Assembly: GCA_945865725.1 (NCBI GenBank)
Contig: CAMBEO010000014.1
Span: forward strand, 1 to 43,597
DNA: 43,597 nucleotides
Source of the DNA: Thermoflexus hugenholtzii JAD2
Lineage (GTDB): Bacteria > Chloroflexota > UBA11872 > UBA12225
Direction of reading: 5' to 3'
Shown piece after piece: positions 2,382 through 8,609 of the stretch. Position 1 is the first letter of the stretch, and every line of letters begins with the position of its first letter. The position numbers were made by a program, and so were the translations under genes. The notes beneath the pieces were generated by a model. The model did not search any database and was not told the origin of the DNA. It saw only the letters and a program-made list of their open reading frames with translations.

Positions 2382-3467
2382 TCACCGGGCCCTCGGTGTC
2401 GGCCCTGCAGGCGCGAAGCAGTCGCGCAACGCGATCAACGCGAAGATGCCGATCGCCGCGCCGAACCAGACCGTGCAGAGGCGGATGATGAGCGTCGCCG
2501 CTCCGGCGACCTCGTGCGATACCGCCCCGATAAGGACGGCGGCAATCGTGGCATCGGCAGCGCCGGCACCGCCAGGCATCAACGAGATGGCACCGGCAAG
2601 CGTGCCGGCATTCAGTGCCACCAGCGCATAGCCCATGAGCGACCAGTCGGCGGGCAGGCCGAAGGCGATCAGGGCGTACCAGAGGGCGACGCTTTCGGCG
2701 CCCCACGACAGGATCCCCGAACCGACCGCCAAGGCGAGGCTCCGAACGTCGAAAATCGACGCGGCGCCGACGATGACATCGCGGAACCGGTGTTCGAGGC
2801 GGTCAACGAGACGCCTGACGACCGGGATGGCGACCACCCGCGCCTCGATCGGGCGGGCCCACCCGGGCACCGTCCACGAGGCACTGCCGACGACCGCAAG
2901 CACCGCGCACCCGCCGACCGCACCGGCAACCGCCAGTGCTACCGGTGCCCACGAGTCCCAGATGATCGTCAGGCCCCACCCGGTCAGGATGATGATCGCG
3001 AAGCCGTCGGTTGCACGTTCGGCGATGCTGATGGGCGCCGCGCGCCACGCCGGCACGCCCGTGCGCTTGCTCAGGAACCACGCCTTGAGCAGTTCGCCTG
3101 ACTTGCCGGGCGTCACCGTCAGCGCGAACCCCGCAATAAAGATGACGGCACTCTCGCGGACGGTCGGGCGCGATCCGACGCGGTGGCAGTAGTAGTGCCA
3201 CTTGACCCAGCGGATCGAGGCGTTCACGACCGTCAGGCCGACCGCGATGGGGAGCGCGTCCCACGAGAACGTGCGGAACGCATCGGCAAGGCGTTGCCAG
3301 TCGCTCCAGGCGCCGACGGCGACCGCGACGGCCAAGGCGAGCAGCGCCGACCATGCGATCTGGCGCCAGACGCCCGCTAGAGATTGGCTTCCCGGGCTCC
3401 CAGGGGATTTCGGCGCCGGGTCGTCGCCGTCGGGGACGTTCGCCGGGGACGTCACGCCGCGGGACAC
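2382..3467 (-). CDS. Lysylphosphatidylglycerol synthase TM region/UPF0104 flippase-like membrane protein
   Basis: Multiple TM helices; TVTPGKSGELLKAWFLSKRTGVPAWRAAPISIAERATDG motif. Start placed at GTG 3467, just after the upstream gene's stop; the longer ORF to 3932 is antisense overlap. Confidence 0.8.
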   Translation of the reverse strand: MSRGVTSPANVPDGDDPAPKSPGSPGSQSLAGVWRQIAWSALLALAVAVAVGAWSDWQRLADAFRTFSWDALPIAVGLTVVNASIRWVKWHYYCHRVGSRPTVRESAVIFIAGFALTVTPGKSGELLKAWFLSKRTGVPAWRAAPISIAERATDGFAIIILTGWGLTIIWDSWAPVALAVAGAVGGCAVLAVVGSASWTVPGWARPIEARVVAIPVVRRLVDRLEHRFRDVIVGAASIFDVRSLALAVGSGILSWGAESVALWYALIAFGLPADWSLMGYALVALNAGTLAGAISLMPGGAGAADATIAAVLIGAVSHEVAGAATLIIRLCTVWFGAAIGIFALIALRDCFAPAGPTPRAR

Positions 3468-3487: not shown

Positions 3488-4831
3488 CTAGAGCGCTCCC
3501 TCCTTCGCCTCGATCTGGAGCCACGACGCCACCACGAAGAGGACGGTGTACACGGCGGTCCACTCTGCGACCAAGGGGTCGCCGGCACGGTCTTGCGCAA
3601 CCGACATCGCCGTGCCGAAGATGAGCGACGTGACCACGAGCAGGGCGCTCAATCCGCCGCGCTCGACGTGCATGCACCAGCGGCGGATGGCAACCGTGAA
3701 CGCCGAGAGCATGCCGATGACGAGCCACCAGAGGTGGCGCTCGGCGGTCCATCCGAAGACCTCGAGCACCGCCACCGCGCCAAAGACGACGAGGAACCCG
3801 AACATCACGTCCCGATGCAGCGTGTTGCCCTCGATGACCTCCCCAAGGGAGTTCTCGGTCTTCGTGTCGCTGACGATCCGGAAGAGCTTGATCGCCCGCA
3901 AGATCCGCAGGCCCTGGAGGAAGACGACCCACGGGGGAAGCTCACCCTCGCCCATGAGGCCCAGGTAGCCCGCCAACACGGCGAAGAACGGGAGGATGGC
4001 GATCAGGTCGATGATGCCCCAGAAGCCGAGGATGTAGTCGCGGGCCCGCTTCTCGTACCGGACATTCAGGGCGTAGTCGATCGTGAAGAGCGCGGCGACG
4101 ATCCCCTCGAAGATGACGAACCCGAAATGGATCCCGTCCTCGGCCTCGATCGGCATCGCGAACCACGGGTCGCGCGTCACCTCGGCGGCGGCGGTCTCCT
4201 CCTCCGCGGTCGGGGTGGCCGTCGGTTCGGCGGTCGGTTGGGGCGTGACGGTCGGCAGCTCGGAGACCCCGGTGCCCATCGCCCGGGACCGTGAAATCTC
4301 TTCCTGGATCAGGGATCGAACCTGGACGAGCAGTTCCGGCGTCGCCGTCGGCTCCACTTCCTCGGTCGGCGTCGCTTCCACCCCGTCGGAGAACGTCCGG
4401 AACTCCGGCGCCCCTTCGACGACGAGGAGGAGGAGCGAGAAGACGACAAGCCATGAGATGACGAAGGCATGCGTGGCGGCGGTAAGCGACCCGTCATGCG
4501 AGTACCCATGGTCGAGGTACGTCCGGATGCGCCGGATCAGCGGCACGCGGGGGGCGGCGGGGGGCGCCGCGCGGACCGGGGCGGGGGCTACCGGTGTACT
4601 GCTCGCAGCCGCATCGACGGGCTTTGGCACGGGCGGCGCCCCGGCGGGCCTCGGCTCGGCCAGGTGTTCGTCAGGCTTCGCTTCCGCTTGCGCGACGGCG
4701 GGCTTCGGCTCGGCCGGAGCGTCGGCGGGCTTCGCCTCGGCCAGAGCATCAGCGGGCTTCGCCTCGGCCTGAACGTCTCCGGGCTTGGCTTCGGGTTGCG
4801 CGTTAGGAGAGGTCGAGTCCATGGGATTCAT
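3488..4831 (-). CDS. Voltage-sensor-domain membrane protein without a recognisable K+ pore loop
   Basis: S2-S3 FEGIVAALFTIDYALNVRYEKRARDYILGFWGIIDLIAILPF and S4 LRILRAIKLFRI; about four more hydrophobic segments but no TxGYG. Start at ATG 4831 supported by GGAGG 11 nt upstream; the ORF is open to 5281 so a longer form is possible. Confidence 0.8.
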   Translation of the reverse strand: MNPMDSTSPNAQPEAKPGDVQAEAKPADALAEAKPADAPAEPKPAVAQAEAKPDEHLAEPRPAGAPPVPKPVDAAASSTPVAPAPVRAAPPAAPRVPLIRRIRTYLDHGYSHDGSLTAATHAFVISWLVVFSLLLLVVEGAPEFRTFSDGVEATPTEEVEPTATPELLVQVRSLIQEEISRSRAMGTGVSELPTVTPQPTAEPTATPTAEEETAAAEVTRDPWFAMPIEAEDGIHFGFVIFEGIVAALFTIDYALNVRYEKRARDYILGFWGIIDLIAILPFFAVLAGYLGLMGEGELPPWVVFLQGLRILRAIKLFRIVSDTKTENSLGEVIEGNTLHRDVMFGFLVVFGAVAVLEVFGWTAERHLWWLVIGMLSAFTVAIRRWCMHVERGGLSALLVVTSLIFGTAMSVAQDRAGDPLVAEWTAVYTVLFVVASWLQIEAKEGAL

Positions 4832-5198
4832 CTCGCTTCGCCCCTCCGTAGACGTCGCTCCGGTCAGGTTCGTCCGCTGATCGCCACCGCGGGCGGGGGA
4901 GGAGGGCATGGCACCCGCGACCGCGGGGGCGGGAGGAGGGGCAGGCGGCGGGGTCACGACTGGTGCGCCCGGCGGTGGAGGGGGCGTCCCGGGCACTGGG
5001 GTCAGCGGCGCGACCGTCGCCGGCTCGCCACTCGACGGCGTGCCAGGCGCCGCTCCGGACGCGGCGTCGCCGCGTCCGGCTTCCGGAGCGGAGGCCTCGA
5101 GACGCTGCCAGCGAGGGGGTTCCACGCGTCCTACTCCGCCTTCCGATACCGCATGCGGCTCCACCGCCACTGAGACACGTCGCCCGGGGTGTCCGGCG

Positions 5199-6125
5199 TC
5201 AACCGGTACTGCCCCGGATCGCCACCTTCGCGGCCACCTTGCGGCCGGTCGGGATGACGATGGCCGAGTCGCGCGGGCCAATCATGTAGTCGTCCGGCGG
5301 GTTGATCCGCACCTGTCGCTGGCCCCGGGCCTCGGCGAGGACGTCCTGGCCGCTCTCGGCCAACATGCGCTCGATGAAGCCGCTCACCCACCCGGTCCCC
5401 GTGCCCATGACGTCATTGACGGACAAGCTTTCGGGGTCGCTGATGATCCCGATGACCAGTTCGGAGCGCGCCGACCGGAACCAGGCGCGTGCCTCCCGGA
5501 GCGGCTTGCTCCACAGTTCGCTCGGCACGACCTCCTTGCGGACGGCCTGCGGGCTGCCGGCGCCGAAAAGCTGGCGGGCGGCGGCGCCGAGTCCCGGCGC
5601 ACGAGAGACCGCCACGATATAGAAGGGCTGCCGGGTGTCGCGGATCTCGATCTCGTTCGCACCGGCATTCTTGATGTAGGTGCCGCGATCAGGCTTGATG
5701 ACCTCGGCGACGATCGTGCCGTCCTTGTTCAGCTCGCGCGTCGCGATGATGTAGCGGAAGGTCCGGTCATCAGCGCCTGCGAGGGGTCCTGCCACCTCGT
5801 CGGCAACGATGATGATCGCCTTGGCCCCGGAGGCCCCAGCGGTCTGAAGGACTTCCTTCTCCGCCGGCGAACCGGGCACATGAAGGAACGTCGGCGCACT
5901 CCGGACATGGCCCATCTGGTCCTTGTCGGAAAGGGCCTCCTTGAGGGCGTCCAGCTCCTTGCCGATCGCTTCGGGGTCCCCGATATTGACGAACACGATC
6001 GGCGCAGACACGCCAGCGGTCGCAATGACCGCGCGCGCGATCGCAGGCACGCCCCGGTGCCATCCGAGGACCAGGAAGTGATCGGTCCAGGCCCGTGGTT
6101 CGCGCTGAAGAAATCGCTGGTCCAT
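5199..6125 (-). CDS. Stand-alone RCK (TrkA-N/TrkA-C-like) protein
   Basis: 308 aa, no TM region. TDHFLVLGWHRGVPAIARAVIA and C-terminal VMGTGTGWVSGFIERMLAESGQDVLA...NPPDDYMIGPRDSAIVIP align with the RCK part of the channel at 6298-7686. Confidence 0.8.
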   Translation of the reverse strand: MDQRFLQREPRAWTDHFLVLGWHRGVPAIARAVIATAGVSAPIVFVNIGDPEAIGKELDALKEALSDKDQMGHVRSAPTFLHVPGSPAEKEVLQTAGASGAKAIIIVADEVAGPLAGADDRTFRYIIATRELNKDGTIVAEVIKPDRGTYIKNAGANEIEIRDTRQPFYIVAVSRAPGLGAAARQLFGAGSPQAVRKEVVPSELWSKPLREARAWFRSARSELVIGIISDPESLSVNDVMGTGTGWVSGFIERMLAESGQDVLAEARGQRQVRINPPDDYMIGPRDSAIVIPTGRKVAAKVAIRGSTG

Positions 6126-6241
6126 GGTGCCGATGCCCCCACGAAGAGCGCGCCGAACGGACGCGTCGCGTTGGCCATTCTACGGTGAAGGCGGAACCCG
6201 TAAGCCGACTGGCATGACCGATCGGCTGCGACGCGACGGGC

Positions 6242-6260
6242 GGGCGCTATCATAGCGCCC
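6242..6260. promoter_or_regulatory. Perfect 19-bp inverted repeat GGGCGCTAT-C-ATAGCGCCC in a divergent promoter region
   Basis: 9-bp arms, 1-nt centre, between divergent RCK and K+ channel genes, 38 bp from the channel ATG. Confidence 0.55.
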
Positions 6261-6297
6261 ACCTGCCGGGCCCAAGGCCTGGCATTCGGAGGGGGCC

Positions 6298-7686
6298 ATG
6301 CAGGTCGCACAGATGCCAGCCGTCCCACGCGGGCCGTCGTGGGTACGGGCGTTCCTCGGCCTCCTCGGGATCGGGCGCGAGACGGTCGTCGCGGCGCCGG
6401 CGGCCAGGCCGGGGGTCAAGGTCGCAGTCGTGCCGGTCGTGCCGACCGGGATAAGCGGTGCGCTTCTGCAGGCCCGGGCAGCGCTCTCCGGCGCCGGCGA
6501 AAGCGCCTCATCGGTCTGGAACCTCGCCAACGACAACCGGCTCGCACGCTACGTGATGCTGATCGTGATCTTCACCGTCGGTCTCGGGGTCATCGTCTAC
6601 ACGGTGGAGCACGTGGTCGCACCAAGCGGCACGAGTGCCGAAGGCGAGGCGATCCAGATCACGACGCTCGAACGGGGCCTGTGGTGGTCGATTGTCACGA
6701 TGACGACCGTGGGCTACGGCGACCTCGTCCCCAAGACGACCCCCGGACGGATCATCGGCTTCTTGACCATGCTCAGTGGCATGGCCCTGACCTCGCTCGT
6801 CACCGCCGCGTTCTCGTCGCTGCTCGTCGCCCAGCAGTTGCAGGCCGCGAGCGGCCACGAGGCGATCACGGACTCGGACCACACCATCATCGCGGGCTGG
6901 AACGACCGGACGGAAGCGGTGATCGGCGGCCTGATCGCCTCGACGGCCGGGGGCAAGCCCGTGATCGTGCTGGTGAACTTGCTCGACGCCGAAAAGCTCT
7001 CGGAACTCAAGTACAAGTACCGCCGGATCAACTTGCGGTTCGTGCGCGGCGACGCCACGAGTGAACAGGCGCTTGAACGAGCGGGGGCCCACAAGGCCGC
7101 GAACTGCATCGTGATGGCCGACACGCAGCAGGCACCGGGTGGCGAGGACTTGCGCTCGACCGTGGTCGTGCTGACCGTCGACAAGATGAACGCGGACATC
7201 AAGATCACCGCCGAGCTGATGCTGTCCGAGAACGAGGCAGACATCCGTCGCGTCGGTGTCGACGACATCGTCCTCGCCGGGCAGGACACGGGGTTCTTCG
7301 TCTCGGCGGGTGCCCTCTCTCCCGGCCTCGGCAATGCCGCCCGCGAGATGTTGAAGGCGTCGGGTGGTGCCGAGATCCGGCGCATCGAGTTCCCGCGCAC
7401 GATGCGCGGACTGTCCTACGAGGAAGTGTTCAGCCTCTACCGGGAACAGAACGTCCTCATCGTCGGAGTCATCTCGGAACGCATCAACGTCTCGCTCGAC
7501 GACCTCCTGGGTTCCGGGACAGGTTGGGTCACCGGTCTGATCAAGCGCCTGATGGCGGAGGCAAGCCAGGAGATCCTCGGGCAAGACCAGGACAAGATCC
7601 AGATCTTGTGGGACCCGGGCGACGACTACACGATCGGTACGACCGACGCCGCCCTCGTCATCGCGCAGCCATTGACCGTCACGTAG
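6298..7686 (+). CDS. Two-TM potassium channel with C-terminal RCK domains (MthK-like architecture)
   Basis: TM1 YVMLIVIFTVGLGVIVYTVEH, selectivity filter TMTTVGYGD, TM2, then DHTIIAGWNDRTEAVIGGLIA (GW-type RCK Rossmann fold) and DPGDDYTIGTTDAALVIA. Confidence 0.92.
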   Translation: MQVAQMPAVPRGPSWVRAFLGLLGIGRETVVAAPAARPGVKVAVVPVVPTGISGALLQARAALSGAGESASSVWNLANDNRLARYVMLIVIFTVGLGVIVYTVEHVVAPSGTSAEGEAIQITTLERGLWWSIVTMTTVGYGDLVPKTTPGRIIGFLTMLSGMALTSLVTAAFSSLLVAQQLQAASGHEAITDSDHTIIAGWNDRTEAVIGGLIASTAGGKPVIVLVNLLDAEKLSELKYKYRRINLRFVRGDATSEQALERAGAHKAANCIVMADTQQAPGGEDLRSTVVVLTVDKMNADIKITAELMLSENEADIRRVGVDDIVLAGQDTGFFVSAGALSPGLGNAAREMLKASGGAEIRRIEFPRTMRGLSYEEVFSLYREQNVLIVGVISERINVSLDDLLGSGTGWVTGLIKRLMAEASQEILGQDQDKIQILWDPGDDYTIGTTDAALVIAQPLTVT

Positions 7687-7752
7687 GATGAAGGCACGCG
7701 GCACTGGCGGGCGCCAGAGCCGCGACGAAGCCCAGTCGCACTGGAGGACGAG

Positions 7753-8388
7753 ATGATCGCCGTCGCAGCCCCCGTGGTCGTCGCGAAGAACGGCCTCAAG
7801 ATGGGGCCCCACCTCGCTGACAACTTCGAGTACTCCAAGATCGAGGAGTTCTCGAAGGACATGGGCCCGGTCATGGCCGACTGGGTCGCCCGTGGCAAGA
7901 AGGCGAACATGCTCGCCGAGCTGACCGACGAGGAGGTCGCCCAGATCTTCTTCGGCGGCGAGTACTTCCACTACGAGCCAGGCGACGTGATCATCCCGTG
8001 GATGGACACGAAGGACAGCATGTTCGTCCTCCTCGCCGAGGGGCGCGTCCGGATCATCACCCCGATCATCCTGCCGCCACCGGTCGGTGACTGGCTCTCG
8101 GGCGAGAAGAGCCTGCTGGAGTTGCCCGCACCCCAGGTCGTCGGCCACTTCAACCTGCTGTCGAGTACCGTGCGGTCGGCGACCGTCGAGGCCATCGTCC
8201 CGATGGACGCGATCGAGGTCCAGAAGGCGTACCTCGACAAGCTGACGAAGGTGAACCTGCACGTCGGGGCCACGCTGTTCAAGAACATCGGCAAGGCGCT
8301 GCAGGGGCAGTTGCGCTTCACGAACAACGACGTGCAGAACCTGACGGTCGCCGTGGCACTCGCGTCGCGCGCCCTGCGCAAGGGCTAG
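7753..8388 (+). CDS. Cyclic-nucleotide-binding-like (cNMP/CRP N-domain) protein without HTH
   Basis: EYFHYEPGDVIIPWMDTKDSMFVLLAEGRVRI...VVGHFNLLSSTVRSATVEAIVPMDAIEV resembles a CNB fold; no DNA-binding domain. SD GGAGGACG before ATG; 66 nt after the channel stop. Confidence 0.75.
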   Translation: MIAVAAPVVVAKNGLKMGPHLADNFEYSKIEEFSKDMGPVMADWVARGKKANMLAELTDEEVAQIFFGGEYFHYEPGDVIIPWMDTKDSMFVLLAEGRVRIITPIILPPPVGDWLSGEKSLLELPAPQVVGHFNLLSSTVRSATVEAIVPMDAIEVQKAYLDKLTKVNLHVGATLFKNIGKALQGQLRFTNNDVQNLTVAVALASRALRKG

Positions 8389-8609
8389 CCGACGCCGGTC
8401 CGGGCCGTGTTGGACCATCGGGTCACGTGCCCGGCCATGGGTCGTGCACGTGATGGGCGGCGACGGCGCGTCCGCAACGCTTGCGGGGATGATGGGCCGT
8501 ATCGACGCTTCCACCGGCGCGCCATGGGTGCGGCGCCGATGGGAGCGGGAAGCATCCACGCTCATCGCGGCGGAGTGAACCTACGCGCCGCGCCGACGTT
8601 AGTTCGAAA

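Follow-up and report, generated by a model that had tools for sequence, protein, structure and literature searches.

The gating ring of the K+ channel MthK includes extra RCKs. The TrkA ring of TM1088A/B is built from two subunits (PMC4380455), and the plant channel CASTOR is a Ca2+ channel (PMC6697748). As for voltage sensing, KCNH channels that have been cut between sensor and pore retain their voltage gating (PMC4389246). The prokaryotic voltage sensors known to date are, according to one review, always accompanied by a pore domain (PMC10377628), and another states that bacteria and archaea have no Hv channels (PMC13095418). Our own search of open-licence papers found neither a bacterial voltage sensor without a pore nor a description of an RCK channel with a separate CNB subunit.

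Here we describe a locus at which parts of this kind are encoded separately. It lies on contig 14 of a Chloroflexota genome bin and occupies positions 3488-8388 of the window, by which we mean the whole stretch of 43,597 nucleotides that was analysed. The initial annotation had listed four adjacent genes, for a voltage-sensor-type membrane protein without a pore loop, a soluble RCK protein, a 2-TM TVGYGD pore with RCK, and a CNB-like protein. All four are present and coding, close to where they had been placed; they do not, however, form a single run but two head-to-head pairs, with the free RCK gene followed by the voltage-sensor gene on the minus strand, and the pore-RCK gene followed by the CNB gene on the plus strand. 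The further claim that the sensor parts sit on separate genes beside one pore gene is borne out by the domain content. The features of the locus and its surroundings are the following:

2382-3467, minus strand: LPG_synthase_TM (flippase-like) gene (PF03706, 2.8e-42), downstream of the voltage-sensor gene
3488-5125, minus strand: voltage-sensor protein, 545 aa, with a disordered N-terminus, S1-S4, four more TM helices and no pore loop
3491-3832, minus strand: C-terminal 4-TM domain of the sensor protein, with an invariant RRW, present in every sensor homolog
3866-3934, minus strand: S4 helix LQGLRILRAIKLFRIV, in which every third residue is basic (R, R, K, R)
4055-4150, minus strand: S2 helix, with the charge-transfer-centre residues E, F and D, aligned to Kv1.3
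5199-6125, minus strand: free RCK protein, 308 aa (TrkA_N, 1.8e-6)
6246-6257, plus strand: near-palindrome GCTATCATAGCG, about 40 bp upstream of the pore start
6298-7686, plus strand: protein of 462 aa that joins a 2-TM K+ channel pore to a single RCK (Ion_trans_2, 7e-14; TrkA_N, 9e-10)
6706-6723, plus strand: selectivity filter TVGYGD, residues 137-142
7753-8388, plus strand: CNB-domain protein, 211 aa, a candidate regulatory subunit
8140-8187, plus strand: phosphate-binding cassette VGHFNLLSSTVRSATV of the CNB protein, with the Arg kept and the usual Glu replaced by His

All four genes are under purifying selection (dN/dS 0.03-0.18 in the pairs compared), which, together with the conserved starts, rules out a pseudogene or a mis-called frame. 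A role in anti-phage defence was likewise rejected: PADLOC returned weak matches for the CNB protein only, and none for the other genes. The flippase-like gene is probably an operon neighbour outside the channel; it holds the same position in four of five relatives and was not found in the fifth (G005). In the divergent region between the gene pairs, a scan for sigma-70-type promoters found nothing. The near-palindrome, which is invariant in five aligned genomes and occurs a single time in the whole genome, is a possible promoter or operator.

The pore protein follows the plan of MthK-type channels, i.e. two TM helices around a TVGYGD-type filter and then an RCK, and its best PDB matches are MthK and KcsA. 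Five of the six filter residues are invariant in the alignment (A2), the valine being replaced by threonine in G005. At the Ca2+ site of MthK, the pore alignment places D275 on D184 and E306 on E210, with a Met at the position of E212; the RCKs of this locus keep the two acidic residues aligned with D184 and E210, not that at E212. The free RCK is a soluble protein with no pore part, as had been annotated. It shares 30% identity with the pore RCK over 279 aa and, judged by sequence, is its paralog. Its structural model matches the MthK RCK at 1.4e-14, and its profile matches the gating-ring RCKs of DMI1 and CASTOR (3e-7 and 8e-4). In a phylogenetic tree, the free RCKs cluster, on a long stem (1.55), with pore RCKs from the same Chloroflexota family, so that their exact origin is unsure.

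Taken alone, the CNB protein of the window falls short of the Pfam cut-off for cNMP_binding (22.0 against 27.5 bits). The CNB fold, which the initial annotation had proposed, is nevertheless settled, because all 16 members of the family match cNMP_binding, the best at 5.7e-21; the family profile also matches CNB structures. A phosphate-binding cassette for a cyclic nucleotide usually has a Glu and an Arg. In alignment A4, the cassette reads GH in the window and five relatives and GE in the majority of the distant relatives. With His in the place of Glu, binding of cyclic nucleotides may therefore have been lost or changed in the family of the window, and may have been kept in the majority of the distant ones. 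In a further genome (G204), a CNB domain is fused to a sodium/calcium exchanger domain, in a gene convergent to that of the CNB subunit (L085:4413-6113, plus strand).

The open frame of the voltage-sensor gene spans 3488-5281 on the minus strand, and translation probably begins with the GTG at 5125 behind GGAAGGCGGAG, since the N-terminus (V-E-P/T-PRWQRL) and this GTG, along with the SD, are conserved in four relatives. Ion_trans is the sole Pfam channel match in all eight sensor homologs, covering only the S2-S4 part in the window protein; neither Ion_trans_2 nor any other pore domain was matched in any of the eight. A hidden pore was looked for and none was found. The description as a voltage-sensor-type protein without a pore loop thus stands, with the S1-S4 residues present and the filter absent, whereas the four TM helices that follow S4, evident from model and hydropathy, had been overlooked. 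The protein has the acidic and aromatic residues of S2, the Asp of S3 and the basic residue at every third position of S4. Among the eight homologs, E147, F154 and D157 of S2, D180 of S3 (numbering of alignment A6) and the first two arginines of S4 (R214 and R217) are invariant, and at least four basic S4 residues are in register. The sensor profile matches the sensor of Kv1.3 at 7e-10 and that of TPTE2, a voltage-sensing phosphatase, at 3e-6. AlphaFold modelled the protein with low confidence (pLDDT 61); in a fold search with this model, Kv and HCN channels came out on top, but none of the matches was significant, and we give them no weight. A search of the PDB found no relative of the C-terminal 4-TM domain, which appears to be a new membrane-domain family without known relatives. 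Whatever its function, the protein is at the level of its sequence an exception to the published statement that the prokaryotic voltage sensors known to date come with a pore (PMC10377628). A second poreless voltage-sensor protein, with zinc-ribbon-like motifs at its N-terminus, is encoded in G005 at a distance from the channel genes (L052:10742-12700, minus strand).

Co-occurrence in relatives had been named beforehand as the test on which the idea of a shared complex could fail; we found the four genes together and in order in five related Chloroflexota genomes (G001, G003, G005, G006 and G007); named relatives are MAGs from lakes and groundwater. The order persists down to 57-59% identity of pore and RCK and 38% of the sensor (G005). 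To describe the wider distribution, 400 Chloroflexota genomes were surveyed with profile searches. The pore-RCK profile matched 17 of the 400 at 1e-25, and the CNB profile 16 at 197 bits or more, the next match having 126 bits; the 16 are the 17 without G255, which has the weakest pore match. In all 16 genomes holding both, the CNB gene adjoins a pore-RCK or RCK gene, and in several pore-CNB pairs the two reading frames overlap. As the profiles were built from these same families, the counts speak for linkage and co-occurrence, not for independent discovery. Two pore-RCK frames carry one in-frame stop each (TAG, TGA), due either to assembly error or to a broken gene (G046, L051 around 8582-8604; G155, C271:278-1282).

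The distribution of the sensor is narrower. Apart from three marginal matches, its C-terminal profile found seven of the 400 genomes; all seven belong to one family, so that the co-occurrence of the sensor with the channel genes is confounded by descent. All seven also have a pore-less RCK gene. In six it is a free RCK of the window's type; in the seventh (G004), it is more similar to pore RCKs. In that genome, an RCK gene and then a CNB gene lie next to each other (L050:5250-6693, minus strand); no pore segment was found in the 0.9 kb before the RCK gene of this incomplete bin. A scan of the genome collection with the free RCK gave matches in the same Chloroflexota family only; two further members of the family, of which one is 94% complete, lack both the sensor and the RCK. 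Two sensor genes lie apart from the channel, namely that of G004 (L049) and the second copy in G005 (L052). Finally, sensor and free RCK are both missing from nine distant genomes that possess the pore-CNB core, so the core does not need the sensor.

The relatives also hold other channel genes. Several genes per genome in the window's family encode tandem proteins in which a complete 6-TM Kv-type unit occurs twice, both units having an S4 and a TTGYGD or TVGYGD filter (L088:3657-5282, plus strand; L089:3193-5928, minus strand; L090:6233-9484, plus strand). In the two proteins scanned with Pfam, there are two Ion_trans and two Ion_trans_2 stretches; we found no bacterial two-domain Kv channel in open-licence papers. 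One further two-unit Kv-like frame is cut by the contig end, and its filters look degenerate (ATHGA and TTTGSG; L091:3456-6686, plus strand). G005 encodes a 6-TM channel with a zinc ribbon and the unusual filter SSIGYEN (L053:589-1644, plus strand).

What these observations support best is a core in which a CNB subunit accompanies an RCK-gated K+ channel; in one family, a second RCK and a voltage-sensor protein are added to it. Tentatively, and with somewhat less than even confidence, we read the whole locus as a K+ channel that is assembled from four gene products and answers to voltage and a cytosolic ligand. The more specific version, a natural split channel whose pore is gated by a poreless sensor to which it is not covalently linked, with a mixed RCK ring and a CNB subunit also taking part, is possible and slightly more doubtful. 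We infer its contacts, stoichiometry, ligand and voltage gating as follows. The 2-TM TVGYGD protein would form a tetrameric pore, and its four RCK domains would combine with four copies of the free RCK into a mixed octameric gating ring, analogous to BK with RCK1 and RCK2, to MthK with its extra free RCK, or to TM1088A/B with subunits from two genes. The CNB protein would be a regulatory subunit bound to this ring. The sensor protein would reside in the membrane beside the pore, with the movement of its S4 coupled to it in the absence of a covalent link, for which the cut KCNH channels are a precedent (PMC4389246), and the resulting channel would respond to both voltage and cytosolic ligand. 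The parts of this scheme differ in strength: the partnership of pore and CNB is strong and well supported, the mixed ring with the free RCK has moderate support, and the voltage coupling of sensor to pore, for which linkage and co-occurrence argue, is the weakest.

That all four products form a single complex had been put forward in the initial annotation on the grounds of adjacency and domain content. Adjacency and co-occurrence speak for it, while the unlinked sensors and the pore-less locus of G004 speak against it. These same unlinked sensors, as well as the pore-CNB core that stands alone in other Chloroflexota, lend some weight to a rival view that we regard as rather improbable, though a serious contender, in which the locus holds two neighbouring units: a channel of pore-RCK and CNB, perhaps with the free RCK in its ring, and a sensor whose S1-S4 separately drives its own 4-TM domain. 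The presence of this domain, with its invariant RRW, in every sensor homolog fits such a view, and the domain may indeed have a separate job of its own. Against two neighbouring units stands the gene order, the free RCK gene being followed by that of the sensor in each of the five syntenic relatives, and also the distribution of the sensor family, every genome with a member of it having a pore-less RCK gene.

In another rival reading, the free RCK regulates the sensor as its operon partner, in a second, small system that shares a promoter region with the channel. The two genes are co-directional, about 70 bp apart and divergent from the pore-CNB pair, and a large distance separates the free RCK from the pore RCK in sequence. 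We nonetheless consider this unlikely: the sensor protein has no recognizable pore, the known targets of RCK proteins are K+ pores and transporters, and in the tree the free RCKs side with the RCKs of pores from their own family. Least likely of all is a chance neighbourhood of functionally independent genes that was kept by descent. Although every syntenic genome belongs to one family, the order has held in G005 at identities down to 38-59%, in a genome that yielded no flippase-like neighbour, and the adjacency of pore and CNB is maintained across the phylum.

The domains of the four proteins are otherwise known, and we place the system among modular K+ channels, the sensor protein carrying a membrane domain that is new. 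If the split-channel reading is true, this sensor would be the first from a prokaryote to lack a pore of its own, and its C-terminal 4-TM domain would be a new coupling module. Two open questions could then be addressed, both so far studied in artificially cut channels: how the movement of a sensor reaches the pore without an S4-S5 linker, and whether complex channels arose by the joining of separate sensor proteins. In a natural four-gene channel, each sensor could be added or removed singly.

The locus resembles several known systems in part. With MthK and GsuK it shares the TVGYGD-type 2-TM pore with RCK and the fold of the RCK (1.4e-14). The extra RCK copies of MthK, however, come from the same gene, whereas that of this locus has diverged and has a gene to itself, and MthK lacks the CNB and voltage-sensor partners found here. 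BK/Slo1 likewise combines a voltage sensor and a K+ pore with RCK-type domains, of which each pore subunit has two, but on one polypeptide, while the same parts are here distributed over three genes, with the CNB protein in addition. The plant channels of the CASTOR/POLLUX/DMI1 group have tandem RCK1-RCK2 on each chain and Ca2+ selectivity; here, the RCKs are split, one per chain, the filter is the TVGYGD of K+ channels, and only the sequence relationship of the RCKs is shared. TM1088A/B offers an example of an octameric gating ring to which two homologous genes contribute (PMC4380455), although as part of a putative Trk transporter and not of a 2-TM channel. The bacterial K+ channels SthK and MloK1 also possess a CNB domain, but within the channel chain, whereas here it stands on a protein of its own, and the usual Glu is missing from its cassette. 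Hv1, the voltage-sensing phosphatase and TMEM266 are voltage sensors without a pore domain as well, but they are eukaryotic and do not have the 4-TM C-terminal domain; moreover, the conserved Trp in the S4 of Hv1 (PMC10377628) is absent from the S4 of the sensor described here. Finally, the split KCNH channels share with this locus the placement of sensor and pore on separate polypeptides (PMC4389246), but while those were made in the laboratory, the division seen here is apparently natural.
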